The notes below the pieces were generated by a model that saw nothing but the letters and a program-made list of their open reading frames with translations, was not told the origin of the DNA and ran no database searches. The position numbers and the translations under genes were made by a program. Shown here piece by piece: positions 12,834 through 55,982 of a stretch of DNA of 64,000 bases; position 1 is the first letter of the stretch; every line of letters starts with the position of its first letter. Location of the stretch: NCBI RefSeq assembly GCF_002165255.2, contig NZ_CP028561.1, positions 2,108,001 to 2,172,000 of the forward strand, given 5' to 3'. This stretch comes from Acinetobacter sp. WCHA45 (lineage in GTDB: Bacteria > Pseudomonadota > Gammaproteobacteria > Pseudomonadales > Moraxellaceae).

Positions 12834-14291
12834 ATGAGCGATACATCTGCTCCTCAACACCTTCAGCGTCAGCTCGGAGCACGCCACCTGAATATGATTG
12901 CCATTGGCGGATCGATTGGTACAGGCTTATTCCTTGCTTCAGGCTCTACGATCGCTACCGCAGGTCCTGGCGGTGCGTTACTCGCTTATGCACTTATTGG
13001 AATCATGATTTATTTCTTGATGACTAGTTTAGGCGAGCTTGCAACTCATAACCCAAGTTCTGGTGCTTTCTTCACCTATGGTAGTCGCTATGTAGAAGAA
13101 GGTTTTGGTTTTGCTTTAGGATGGAACTATTGGTACAACTGGGCGATTACAGTCGCATTTGAATTAGTAGCCGTCCAATTCATCATGAAATTTTGGTTTC
13201 CAGAAATTTCTGGCTTCTATTGGAGTGCTGTATTTTTGGCTGTGATCTTTGCAATCAATGCAATGACGGTCAAAGGCTTTGGTGAAAGTGAATTCTGGTT
13301 TTCAATGATTAAAGTTATTGCCATTATTGTATTTATCATCATCGGTATCGCAATGATTGCAAAAATTATGCTGACTCCAAATGTTTCTGCATTTAGCAAC
13401 TGGACTAAAGGTGACGCGCCATTCGTTGGTGGATTACAAGCACTGGTTGGTGTTGCAATGATCGCAGGGTTCTCATTTCAAGGTACTGAAATGGTCGGTG
13501 TAGCTGCTGGTGAATCAAAAGATCCTAAGAAAACGATTCCTTTGGCGATCAAACAGATTTTTTGGCGAATTCTACTTTTCTATATTTTGTGTATTTTCAT
13601 CATTGGTACACTGGTCAGCTACGATAATCCTTTGTTACTGCATGCCGCAGAAAGTGAAAATATTGCACTTTCTCCATTTACTCTTCTCTATGAAAAAGCA
13701 GGATTCGCATTTGCTGCAAGCTTAATGAATGCAGTTATTCTGAGTGCAATTTTATCTGCGGGTAACTCTGGAATGTACTCTTCTACCCGTATGCTATTTG
13801 ATATGGCTAAAGAAGGTCGTGCGCCAAAGTGGTTCTCCAAATTAGATACACGTGGCGTTCCAATGAATGCACTGTATGCAACTACAGCAGTTGCAGCATT
13901 ATGTTTCCTAACGACATTTATCGGTGAGCAACAAGTTTTTAACTGGTTACTTAATATGTCTGGGATGTGTGGATTTATCGTCTGGCTAGGCATAGCAATA
14001 TCACATTATCGTTTCCGCAAAGGCTATTTAGCTCAAGGTCATAAGTTAGAAGACCTCGCTTATCGTGCAAAATTCTTTCCATTTGCACCGTGGTTTGCAT
14101 TTATTCTCTGTTCCATCATTATTTTAGGTCAGAACTATCAAGCCCTGATTGGTGGAAAAATTGACTGGTTAGGACTACTTTCAACCTATATCAGTATTCC
14201 GCTATTTCTTGCAATTTGGTTAGGGTATAAGTGGAAACACAAGACCAAACTCATTGCTTACAAAGAGATGAATGTGAAAGAAGGTGAATAA
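12834..14291 (+). CDS. APC-family amino acid permease, LysP-like
   Basis: A 485-residue transporter with about 12 membrane helices. The N-terminal LGARHLNMIAIGGSIGTGLFLASG is the TM1 signature of the amino acid-polyamine-organocation superfamily, and GPGGALLAYALIG, SSGAFFTYGSRYV and SFQGTEMVGVAAGES are shared with lysine, aromatic and GABA permeases of the YAT group. LysP is the closest resemblance, but the substrate cannot be fixed by eye. AAGGA precedes the ATG. It is coupled to rsmC by an 18-base gap. Confidence 0.85.
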   Translation: MSDTSAPQHLQRQLGARHLNMIAIGGSIGTGLFLASGSTIATAGPGGALLAYALIGIMIYFLMTSLGELATHNPSSGAFFTYGSRYVEEGFGFALGWNYWYNWAITVAFELVAVQFIMKFWFPEISGFYWSAVFLAVIFAINAMTVKGFGESEFWFSMIKVIAIIVFIIIGIAMIAKIMLTPNVSAFSNWTKGDAPFVGGLQALVGVAMIAGFSFQGTEMVGVAAGESKDPKKTIPLAIKQIFWRILLFYILCIFIIGTLVSYDNPLLLHAAESENIALSPFTLLYEKAGFAFAASLMNAVILSAILSAGNSGMYSSTRMLFDMAKEGRAPKWFSKLDTRGVPMNALYATTAVAALCFLTTFIGEQQVFNWLLNMSGMCGFIVWLGIAISHYRFRKGYLAQGHKLEDLAYRAKFFPFAPWFAFILCSIIILGQNYQALIGGKIDWLGLLSTYISIPLFLAIWLGYKWKHKTKLIAYKEMNVKEGE

Positions 14292-14307
14292 TAAATCTTA
14301 ATTTCAC

Positions 14308-14335
14308 TTGACCCTTTGAGAAATACGAGTAAAAT
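14308..14335 (+). promoter_or_regulatory. Candidate sigma70 promoter of the rtcB leader
   Basis: TTGACC and TAAAAT with a 16-base spacer. Initiation would fall near 14342, giving an untranslated leader of about 200 bases before rtcB. Confidence 0.65.
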
Positions 14336-14378
14336 TCACGCTCATATTTTCATCGGCAATTTTTATAGGAGGACACAC

Positions 14379-14408
14379 ATGCCATTACTACAAAGGAAAA
14401 CACTTTAA
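14379..14408 (+). CDS. Nine-residue leader peptide upstream of rtcB
   Basis: A minimal ORF, MPLLQRKTL followed by TAA, preceded by AGGAGG six bases before the ATG, the strongest ribosome site in this part of the window. It lies between the candidate promoter and a series of hairpins ahead of rtcB, as in classical attenuation leaders. The codons (CCA TTA CTA CAA AGG AAA ACA CTT) include the rare Arg codon AGG and three Leu codons but no run of one amino acid. Translation is inferred only from the ribosome site. Confidence 0.5.
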   Translation: MPLLQRKTL

Positions 14409-14430
14409 GATTTGGCACTGTGTCGTCTCA

Positions 14431-14515
14431 CGGACAAGTGACAAATCAAATGATCACTTGTCCGAATGCTCTTCTAAACCTAGCATTCGCTAGGTTTTTT
14501 TATGCCTATTCGGAC
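14431..14515 (+). promoter_or_regulatory. Attenuator-like leader RNA of rtcB with competing hairpins
   Basis: Four helices overlap. Helix A pairs 14431-14441 (CGGACAAGTGA) with 14454-14464. Helix B pairs GAATGCT (14464-14470) with AGCATTC (14482-14488). Helix C pairs AACCTAG (14477-14483) with CTAGGTT (14490-14496) and is followed by seven T, an intrinsic terminator. Helix D pairs GTCCGAAT (14460-14467) with ATTCGGAC (14508-14515). B excludes C, and D excludes A and B. This is the layout of a transcription-attenuation switch; the signal is unknown. Confidence 0.6.
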
Positions 14516-14542
14516 AGAAATTTCGCTAATCGAGAAATAAAA

Positions 14543-15748
14543 ATGGGCATACAAAAAATACTCAATGCTGAAGCTCAATACGGTGTACCTGTGAAGATAT
14601 TCACTAACGATATTGATAATGAGAGCATTGAACAACTGAAGAAAATGGCACAACTGCAATTTGTTTATTCTCATATTGCAGTCATGCCCGATGTACATGT
14701 TGGTAAAGGTGCGACAGTCGGAAGTGTTATACCAACTAAACATGCAATTATACCCGCAGCTGTGGGCGTAGATATTGGCTGTGGTATGAATGCGATTCGA
14801 CTCAATTTAAAAGCTTCACAACTTCCTGATAATCTTTCGTCATTGCGTAATGCAATCGAACGAAAAGTTCCCGTAGGATTTGAGTTACATAAACAAGTGA
14901 AAGCGAAAGCATCTAGCATTATTCCGTTAGAAAAACGCTTACAACCAATCGTAAAAAAACATCCTGGTTTAATCAGAATGCTCAGAAATTTTGATTTAAC
15001 TTGGCAAAAACAACTTGGAACTTTAGGTGGTGGTAACCATTTTATTGAACTCTGCTTAGACGAAAATCAAGATGTTTGGGTCATGTTACATTCTGGCAGT
15101 CGTGGATTAGGTAATGTGATCGGCACGTATTTTATTGAACTGGCGAAGAAAGAAGCTCAACATCGCTTTGGTCATGTTCCTGATAAAGATTTAAGTTATT
15201 TCGCAGAAGGATCATGCAGTTTTAATGATTATGTTGAAGCCGTTGAATGGGCTCAAGAATATGCTTTTGAAAATCGTCGTGAAATGATGCGTCTGATTTT
15301 AGAGGCAATCCGCCCACTGCTACCACCTTTTCAAATGACCAAAGAAGCGATTAATTGCCACCATAATTACGTCAGTCAAGAAACTCATTTTGGTGAGCAT
15401 CTCTTAATCACACGTAAGGGGGCAATTCGAGCGGGCCAAGATGAATTAGGCATCATTCCTGGTTCTATGGGGGCTCGCTCTTATATTGTGAAAGGCAAAG
15501 CGAATCCTGATTCATTTTGCTCATGTTCACATGGCGCAGGACGAAAAATAAGCCGTAGTAAAGCCAAATTACTTTTTGGTCAAGAGGATTTGATTCAACA
15601 GACCCAAGGTATTGAATGTCGTAAAGACAGTGGTGTAATTGACGAAATACCAAGTGCATATAAAGATATCGATCAAGTCATGGCAAACCAATCAGATTTA
15701 ATCGAAATCGTGCACACCCTTAAACAAGTTCTATGTATAAAAGGTTAA
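14543..15748 (+). CDS. rtcB: RNA ligase RtcB
   Basis: A 401-residue RtcB-family ligase. Metal and GMP-binding motifs are visible: MPDVHVGKGATVGSVIP, GVDIGCGMNAIRL with the Mn-binding cysteine, GTLGGGNHFIEL, HSGSRGLG, CHHNYV, RKGAIRA and the C-terminal SHGAGR region carrying the histidine to be guanylylated. It joins RNA 2',3'-cyclic phosphate or 3'-phosphate ends to 5'-OH ends, in RNA repair. The ATG at 14543 gives a normal N-terminus; the open frame upstream runs through the terminator hairpin. No rtcA, rtcR or prfH is adjacent, unlike many rtcB loci. Confidence 0.93.
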   Translation: MGIQKILNAEAQYGVPVKIFTNDIDNESIEQLKKMAQLQFVYSHIAVMPDVHVGKGATVGSVIPTKHAIIPAAVGVDIGCGMNAIRLNLKASQLPDNLSSLRNAIERKVPVGFELHKQVKAKASSIIPLEKRLQPIVKKHPGLIRMLRNFDLTWQKQLGTLGGGNHFIELCLDENQDVWVMLHSGSRGLGNVIGTYFIELAKKEAQHRFGHVPDKDLSYFAEGSCSFNDYVEAVEWAQEYAFENRREMMRLILEAIRPLLPPFQMTKEAINCHHNYVSQETHFGEHLLITRKGAIRAGQDELGIIPGSMGARSYIVKGKANPDSFCSCSHGAGRKISRSKAKLLFGQEDLIQQTQGIECRKDSGVIDEIPSAYKDIDQVMANQSDLIEIVHTLKQVLCIKG

Positions 15749-15752
15749 ATAG

Positions 15753-15911
15753 ATGAAACTTAAAGCAATGCCTAAAATCAAAGTTCGTAATCCTGTTGCG
15801 CTCTCCCCTTTACTACAAAAAGGAGGGATCCATGAAACAGAAAAACCTAGAGCTCAGCACCGTCGAGAAAGACAAAACACCAAACAACAGCTCAGAAAAG
15901 AAGTTTGGTAA
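15753..15911 (+). CDS. Small basic protein coupled to rtcB
   Basis: A 52-residue highly basic ORF that starts four bases after the rtcB stop. It reads MKLKAMPKIKVRNPVALSP followed by LLQKGGIHE and an Arg/Gln/Lys-rich tail ending EVW. The RNPVALSPLL-x-KGG-x-H pattern recalls small uncharacterised basic proteins found in many proteobacteria. The tight spacing suggests translational coupling to rtcB. There is no known function; the charge suits nucleic acid or ribosome binding, which is inference. Confidence 0.6.
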   Translation: MKLKAMPKIKVRNPVALSPLLQKGGIHETEKPRAQHRRERQNTKQQLRKEVW

Positions 15912-55649: not shown

Positions 55650-55789
55650 TTGATGTCCAATTTGAGATGACTATTTACTACTCTCACATTGTAAAGCAAT
55701 TTGACATACTTTGGTCAAAGTTCATTTCCAAATGCAATTGTTTAAAAAACGTGAACACTCTATACTTCGCATCATCTCGCAACAAGTCT

Positions 55790-55967
55790 AAAGCACATTC
55801 TTTTGCTTATAGGGAAGTTGGTGTAAGTCCAACACTGCCCTCGCAACGGTAACACCGAATTATTAATCTTAGCTAAACGCCAAATCACTGCATCTGAATG
55901 ATGTGGGAAGATGATTAATAGCATCGTCATTGTGATGATATAGTGAAGTCCGGAGACCTGCTTGTTG
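55790..55967 (+). promoter_or_regulatory. Cobalamin (adenosylcobalamin) riboswitch upstream of btuB
   Basis: The core is clear: GGGAAGTTGGTGTAAGTCC from 55812, CACTGCCC then CGCAACGGT (55842-55850), variable helices, and AAGTCCGGAGACC (55946 on) that closes the B12 box. Length and order match the Rfam cobalamin class. It would repress btuB when B12 is plentiful. Confidence 0.93.
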
Positions 55968-55982
55968 TTTATTTCCACTTTA

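Follow-up and report, generated by a model that had tools for sequence, protein, structure and literature searches.

The window, a 64,000-nucleotide stretch of the Acinetobacter sp. WCHA45 genome (contig NZ_CP028561.1, forward-strand positions 2,108,001 to 2,172,000), carries the RNA ligase gene rtcB behind a compact leader. All features below lie on the forward strand, and each is given with the kind of evidence that places it.

14308-14335 (+): sigma70-like promoter TTGACC-16-TAAAAT (TTGACC 14308-14313, TAAAAT 14330-14335; sequence)
14344-14518 (+): leader RNA, a match to AbsR28 (RF02606) at 116 bits, with its start placed by the Rfam model
14367-14372 (+): Shine-Dalgarno sequence AGGAGG of the leader open reading frame (ORF) (sequence)
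14368-14384 (+): segment 1, the Shine-Dalgarno and start region, partner of segment 2 (fold, swap tests); the 1:2 helix joins 14368-14370 to 14426-14428, 14372-14377 to 14419-14424 and 14380-14384 to 14413-14417
14379-14408 (+): predicted leader ORF of nine codons, MPLLQRKTL, with ATG at 14379 and TAA ending at 14408 (sequence and genome comparison)
14409-14428 (+): segment 2, directly 3' of the stop codon, partner of segment 1 (OFF) or 3 (ON) (fold, swap tests); the 2:3 helix (ON) joins 14409-14414 to 14442-14447, 14416-14419 to 14437-14440 and 14421-14424 to 14433-14436
14431-14447 (+): segment 3, partner of segment 2 or 4 (swap test; fold of locus L097)
14454-14469 (+): segment 4 (sequence, swap tests); in the 3:4 helix (OFF) 14454-14464 pairs with 14431-14441, and in the 4:5 helix (ON, antiterminator) CGAATGC at 14463-14469 pairs with GCATTCG at 14483-14489
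14476-14501 (+): predicted intrinsic terminator, made of segments 5 and 6 and a run of seven T (sequence, detector)
14508-14516 (+): ATTCGGACA, 3' of the terminator and complementary to 14459-14467 (sequence; swap test, 7/2000)
14543-15748 (+): rtcB, RNA ligase (PF01139, E 2.2e-125), ATG at 14543
15753-15911 (+): gene of a 52-residue basic protein (MKLKAMPKIKVRNPVALSPLLQKGG...), the second gene behind the leader, starting 4 nt past the rtcB stop codon

The terminator reads AAACCTAGC-ATTC-GCTAGGTTT at 14476-14497, with its seven T at 14495-14501, and the hexamer CGGACA is found at 14431 and 14511 with its complement TGTCCG at 14459-14464. Every coordinate that the sequence-only reading had assigned to the promoter, the nine-codon ORF with its AGGAGG, the seven-T terminator and these hexamers was correct when the sequence was reread. 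The leader folds at -52.5 kcal/mol compared with a mean of -25.85 kcal/mol for dinucleotide shuffles (z -7.75, 0/200), and sigma70-like promoters lie 5' of 22 of the 26 representative leaders described below versus 4 of 240 coding stretches.

The leader RNA had been taken to be undescribed, which does not hold: the same RNA is already known as AbsR28, the one Rfam family to match it at gathering score, and end to end (116 bits, cut-off 50). A match to NsiR4 (E 0.069, 18.8 bits, below its cut-off of 40) is at chance level, and elsewhere in the window a cobalamin riboswitch (RF00174, 93.5 bits) lies at 55767-55979 on the forward strand. In A. baumannii Northern blotting and RACE revealed AbsR28 as a discrete transcript of ~180 nt in the gap that separates a lysine permease gene from A1S_2839 (PMC3976366), and RNA-seq of strain AB5075 also detects it (PMC5320573). 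A 2024 report describes it as an Mn2+-binding RNA that pairs with tssM mRNA and thereby represses the type VI secretion system (T6SS); there the KD for Mn2+ is ~6 uM, the lead-cleavage pattern shifts, the RNA level rises with MnCl2 under oxidative stress, deletion of absR28 alters T6SS genes, plasmid-borne expression lowers hcp, and no polar effect of the deletion on the downstream gene A1S_2839 is reported (PMC11796373). In A. baylyi, when one deletion strain was evolved in LB, five of its six clones carried substitutions in or near the AbsR28 homologue (PMC11426457). The word rtcB does not occur in the main texts of PMC3976366, PMC5320573 and PMC11796373, and a search of the open-licence literature found no link in print between rtcB and a leader attenuator. 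The published AbsR28 probe, minus its last 8 letters, occurs exactly in seven loci (some of the same genome), each with rtcB.

AbsR28 and rtcB travel together. The AbsR28 model matches 85 of 149 Acinetobacter genomes, with 64 above the cut-off, and 61 of these 64 strong matches have a co-oriented rtcB orthologue 15-260 nt downstream (68 of 93 when weak matches are included; in G086 a split rtcB was counted by its 5' piece). Seen from the gene, 68 of the 69 genomes with an rtcB orthologue (>=80% identity) have an AbsR28 match, and in the remaining one, G076, the leader is visible by eye and was missed by the model. In the three strong matches that lack an intact rtcB, judged by eye, the gene has been lost (G094, G121) or has decayed (G075), and all three retain the second operon gene beside AbsR28; the weak match in G143 resembles them. 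Because 61 of the 64 strong matches directly precede rtcB, AbsR28, published as a free-standing small RNA, is best read as the terminated leader of rtcB. A terminated leader also yields a discrete RNA, and therefore the leader reading and a role of AbsR28 in trans can both be true.

A detector that requires a Shine-Dalgarno sequence, a short ORF (5-22 codons) and a terminator 40-140 nt past the end of that ORF picked out 88 of the 120 distinct regions; in four of the 88 the leader has no intact rtcB behind it. Five regions of less than 230 nt (L036, L047, L050, L058 and L061) were excluded from the 120. None of the 32 negatives comes from Acinetobacter; with the stricter form of the detector no leader was found in 21 Psychrobacter, four other Moraxella and seven further loci. 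The detector was silent on window ORFs of 200 residues or more (0/42), on shuffled leaders (0/520) and on 16 regions, taken from 44, upstream of a second rtcB paralogue (0/16); since it was designed after the leader had been seen, these control figures give a false-positive rate and not a blind discovery.

The pairing itself is conserved across genomes. We used a swap test, which asks whether arms from the same genome pair better than arms exchanged between genomes and ignores kinship, on 26 representatives of less than 80% identity (82 of the 88 leaders could be segmented, six loci being skipped). Own and swapped arms gave -14.32 and -10.61 kcal/mol for 1:2, -13.15 and -8.79 for 2:3, -14.02 and -10.40 for 3:4 and -11.74 and -9.52 for 5:6, and for none of these four helices did any of 2000 permutations reach the observed mean. 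Both 2:3 and 3:4 are thus conserved amid sequence change, and therefore segment 3 has two partners, as a switch needs. The 4:5 helix gave no covariation among the 26 representatives (1888/2000) and is near-invariant there; because it hardly varies, this set is uninformative about it. Covariation of segment 4 with the post-terminator element is weaker (7/2000 in the same 26).

These results separate what was sound in the sequence-only reading from what was not. Its mutually exclusive hairpins stand, but it had missed helices 2:3 and 4:5, on which the switch depends. It had placed the decision in TGTCCG choosing between the two CGGACA copies, and this part falls: the copy at 14511 lies after the terminator, is transcribed only once the terminator has been passed and so cannot decide termination, even if its pairing with segment 4 is kept. 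The true competitions are 1:2 versus 2:3 versus 3:4, and 4:5 versus 5:6. The element ATTCGGACA has no role in the attenuator model and may be a processing site or a stabiliser of the read-through mRNA. Its pairing with segment 4 is kept by eye in L033 and L148, with letters altered on both sides, and the AbsR28 model ends just past it.

The same plan is found, with unrelated sequence, in distant bacteria. In the first scan 6 of 12 non-Acinetobacter loci (L066, L069 and L071-L080) have an ORF of 9-14 codons and then a terminator before rtcB, namely MAGs of Thiotrichaceae (two), Cocleimonas, Kangiellaceae and Competibacteraceae and one MAG labelled Aquificaceae; L078 is positive with the laxer detector used here and negative with the stricter one. 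A class-wide search, in which 40 of 369 genomes matched and 30 loci were read, gave the combination in 7 of 29 loci with the window's own excluded, and it is also seen in a Neisseriaceae bacterium (L035), Moraxella cuniculi (L033) and a gammaproteobacterial MAG (L034). In a swap test on 17 distant or mixed loci including the window's (highest pairwise identity 61%, kinship ignored), own arms beat swapped arms for 1:2, 4:5 and 5:6 (0/5000 each), with the advantage in 14, 15 and 17 of the 17 loci, respectively. Own arms win for 4:5 in this set, and therefore the antiterminator covaries there. For 2:3 the distant set offers no more than fold scores (median z -2.2, between -3.7 and -0.2). By sequence comparison, the plan thus recurs before other rtcB genes. 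Taken with the linkage to rtcB, the detector counts and the covarying exclusive helices, this recurrence strongly supports, as far as sequence can, the earlier proposal of a leader-peptide attenuator with exclusive hairpins.

We consider it likely that the element is a ribosome-dependent transcription attenuator in the rtcB leader. Its OFF state consists of 1:2, 3:4 and the terminator 5:6, and its ON state of 2:3 and the antiterminator 4:5; in the OFF state the 1:2 helix hides the start signal of the nine-codon ORF. We infer that translation of this ORF drives the switch, in the following order. RNA polymerase would start near 14344 and make the ORF and then the pairing segments. With no ribosome loaded, 1:2 would close over the start signal, 3:4 would pair and 5:6 would stop transcription near 14501. 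A fast ribosome would reach the stop codon at 14406 and, with a footprint assumed to be ~15 nt, would cover much of segment 2, so that 3:4 and the terminator would again form. A ribosome held on the first codons, by a tetracycline-type block or by a lack of charged or intact tRNA, would instead cover segment 1 and leave segment 2 free; 2:3 would then form, segment 4 would be released to pair with the 5' arm and loop of the terminator (segment 5), and polymerase would go on to transcribe rtcB and the small gene that follows. AbsR28 as published would be the terminated leader.

Equilibrium folding of the unfinished transcript with the ribosome in different positions gives this scheme mixed support. 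In 9 of 13 distant loci, placing a ribosome on the first codon adds at least 2 pairs between upstream RNA and the terminator 5' arm and loop (in L072 the value goes from 3.5 to 10.8), and in 8 of these 9, L204 being the exception, this pairing falls back when the ribosome is at the last codon or the stop; in the other 4 of the 13 stalling brings no rise. The complete terminator wins at equilibrium in 12 of the 13. In Acinetobacter the switch is absent at equilibrium: across the 88 folded leaders (five or so of them not Acinetobacter, and with the ORF chosen by hand for L024 and L029) the terminator 5' arm is paired upstream at 0.61 without a ribosome and 0.62 with one on the first codon, and drops, to 0.48 (84 leaders), only once the ribosome has reached the ORF end. 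Once complete, the terminator wins in all of the ribosome states listed for five leaders of this set. The ribosome-state step in Acinetobacter must therefore be kinetic or is wrong, and this is the weakest point of the model. Two published observations also count against an attenuator: the absR28 deletion without a reported polar effect on A1S_2839 (PMC11796373), and the mapped length of ~180 nt, with which AbsR28 extends past the terminator.

The leader ORF is kept while its peptide is not. It has nine codons in 67 of 88 picks, with differing peptide sequences, and among 26 leaders it ends in TAA (19), TGA (4) or TAG (3); a conserved stalling peptide can be discarded, since the leader peptides are too different. 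In the published record, tigecycline induces rtcB and the gene directly behind it more than any other genes in A. baumannii, 252-fold (PMC7652931), half-MIC minocycline raises rtcB 2.6-fold (PMC9741440), leader and gene not being separated in either account, and rtcB_2 of Acinetobacter Tol 5 is described as rising on drying (PMC13130816). The two antibiotic responses are consistent with translation being the input. Most likely, rtcB is read only when ribosomes are slowed. Of the two signals suggested from the sequence, ribosome slowing fits the tigecycline induction and shares the field with a leucyl-tRNA signal; RNA damage might act as a direct signal.

That leucyl-tRNA signal deserves weighing. 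The same attenuator could be tuned to shortage or cleavage of leucyl-tRNA through leucine codons at positions 2-4, and not to slowing in general. Across 39 leader peptides, codons 2-4 specify leucine 46 times out of 117, as against 775 of 9624 residues (8%) in rtcB of the same loci; leucine occurs in 35 of the 39, and 13 have two and five have three in a row; in the window codons 2-4 occupy 14382-14390 (+), where a stalled ribosome should open the switch. This is exactly where a held ribosome acts in the model, which makes a leucyl-tRNA signal a real rival to general slowing. Yet four leader peptides (L142x, L147, L209 and L073) have no leucine, the bias at codon 2 may, judged by eye, partly reflect pairing with segment 2, leucine codons in the leaders are not rarer than in rtcB (TTA is commonest in both), and induction by tigecycline and minocycline needs no leucine signal. 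We regard tuning to leucyl-tRNA as unlikely, and general slowing of the ribosome as the preferred signal.

Other explanations would take the ribosome out of the switch or the switch out of the leader. RtcB is a manganese-dependent ligase, and manganese binding to the leader RNA, in place of ribosomes, might set readthrough into rtcB; the micromolar affinity of AbsR28 for Mn2+ and its rise with MnCl2 in oxidative stress speak for such a metal switch. However, no known metal riboswitch matches the leader (yybP-ykoY matched neither at gathering score nor at E up to 1 on 14250-14600), pairing, start signal and ORF explain much of the conservation, and distant loci keep the plan with unrelated sequence, so we hold a metal switch to be very improbable. 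AbsR28 could also be a free-standing trans-acting RNA that sits beside rtcB by chance, its hairpins serving stability or targets and rtcB having its own promoter. The discrete RNA on Northern blots and by RACE (PMC3976366), and the T6SS and hcp effects without a reported polar effect (PMC11796373), are what such an RNA would give, but chance neighbourhood sits badly with the near-constant tie of strong matches to rtcB, the retained Shine-Dalgarno sequence and ORF, the covariation of mutually exclusive arms, the recurrence of the plan before other rtcB genes and the retention of the second operon gene where rtcB is no longer intact. We think this quite unlikely. Finally, the leader might attenuate without translation of the ORF as its sensor, rtcB being raised, for example, by mRNA stabilisation under antibiotics. 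S. meliloti in tetracycline has both mRNA stabilisation and uORF attenuation (PMC12218461), and in Acinetobacter equilibrium folding does not separate the ribosome states. Against this, the start and stop of the ORF are kept amid sequence change and the start signal lies inside the covarying 1:2 helix; moreover, 252-fold (PMC7652931) is large for stabilisation alone compared with about 3-fold in S. meliloti (PMC12218461). A sensor of this kind has very little probability in our view, and we continue with a ribosome-dependent attenuator.

The known control of rtcB, RtcR acting with sigma54, had been offered as the comparison for this locus, but the activator is absent here. RtcR control of rtcBA is described as responding to tRNA fragments (PMC7790460) and as sigma54-dependent (PMC9879122). 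The window's genome has no match to PF06956 and so no RtcR, and in relatives RtcR travels with the second rtcB paralogue, which is 55-59% identical to the leader-linked rtcB and is present in many Acinetobacter genomes and absent from the window's. In one sample of 25 Acinetobacter genomes 10 have RtcR; all 10 carry the second rtcB, within 5 kb and on one contig in nine and on different contigs in the tenth (coordinates compared by hand), and the sample genomes with the leader-linked rtcB only, the window's (G000), G006 and G013, have no RtcR. The leader, conversely, is absent before the second rtcB (0/16, L215-L230). A scan for sigma54-like promoters found none before the 26 leader representatives, with little power, because it matched only 1 of the 16 paralogue upstream regions.

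The operon behind the leader holds more than the ligase. The gene of the 52-residue protein stays behind the leader where rtcB has been lost (L141, L142 and L145) or has decayed (L176), and its matches that bear organism names are all from Acinetobacter or Moraxella. Two members tested gave no Pfam or NCBIfam match. We rejected ArfA as its identity: 38 relatives have no PF03889 match, and PDB matches are at chance level (best E 0.063). The gene behind rtcB that is co-induced by tigecycline would presumably be this one. Further on, a third ORF (15969 to ~16038, +) has a Shine-Dalgarno sequence and an ATG and meets no stop codon before the operon terminator. Because it runs stop-less into the terminator, the terminated mRNA would be a nonstop message. 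Of the tails of 29 representatives below 75% identity, 17 have a terminator with such an ORF and 16 of these are open through it; the window's operon hairpin has, by eye, no stop in any frame, so this openness partly comes free. A link between the stop-less ORF and ribosome rescue is possible.

In P. aeruginosa deletion of rtcB alone is reported to activate the T6SS (PMC8619066), and therefore a disturbed rtcB leader could explain part of the absR28 phenotype in cis. Such an explanation would conflict with the report that the deletion is not polar, and it leaves the effect of plasmid-supplied AbsR28 unaccounted for.

Attenuation of the E. coli trp and his operons uses a short leader ORF, exclusive helices selected by ribosome position and an intrinsic terminator before the gene. 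The rtcB leader shares the ORF, the exclusive helices and the terminator, and in it both empty and finished leaders would terminate. It differs in having six segments and not four, in a segment 2 that hides the start signal of the ORF, in having no amino acid common to all 39 leaders (leucine being strongly favoured) and in controlling an RNA ligase rather than a biosynthetic gene. Like the uORF attenuators of Gram-positive resistance genes and the DUF1127 uORF of S. meliloti, it would use a small ORF to sense slowed translation (PMC12218461). Unlike them, it is found in a Gram-negative bacterium with an intrinsic terminator, where a rut site was proposed for S. meliloti (PMC12218461), it controls a gene for RNA repair and it has no conserved stalling peptide. 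Like the RtcR system, the leader would raise RtcB upon trouble in the translation machinery, but RtcR is a protein activator that senses tRNA ends, whereas the leader acts in cis. What would be new is ribosome-dependent attenuation of transcription in front of a ligase gene for RNA repair, on a six-segment plan that distant bacteria share.

More tentatively, and with some doubt, we suggest that these leaders form a widespread translation-surveillance circuit, in which slowing on the first codons of a decoy ORF, by broken tRNA among other causes, opens the switch and RtcB mends the cause. The circuit would be independent of RtcR, apart from the second, RtcR-linked rtcB, and in Acinetobacter it would also drive the small basic protein and the stop-less mini-ORF while its leader doubles as AbsR28. 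If the leader is an attenuator, RNA repair would have its own cis-acting translation sensor beside RtcR, and the place of rtcB at the top of the A. baumannii tigecycline response would be explained. The published small RNA AbsR28 would then be re-read as a cis leader, which offers a testable cis explanation of its T6SS phenotype.
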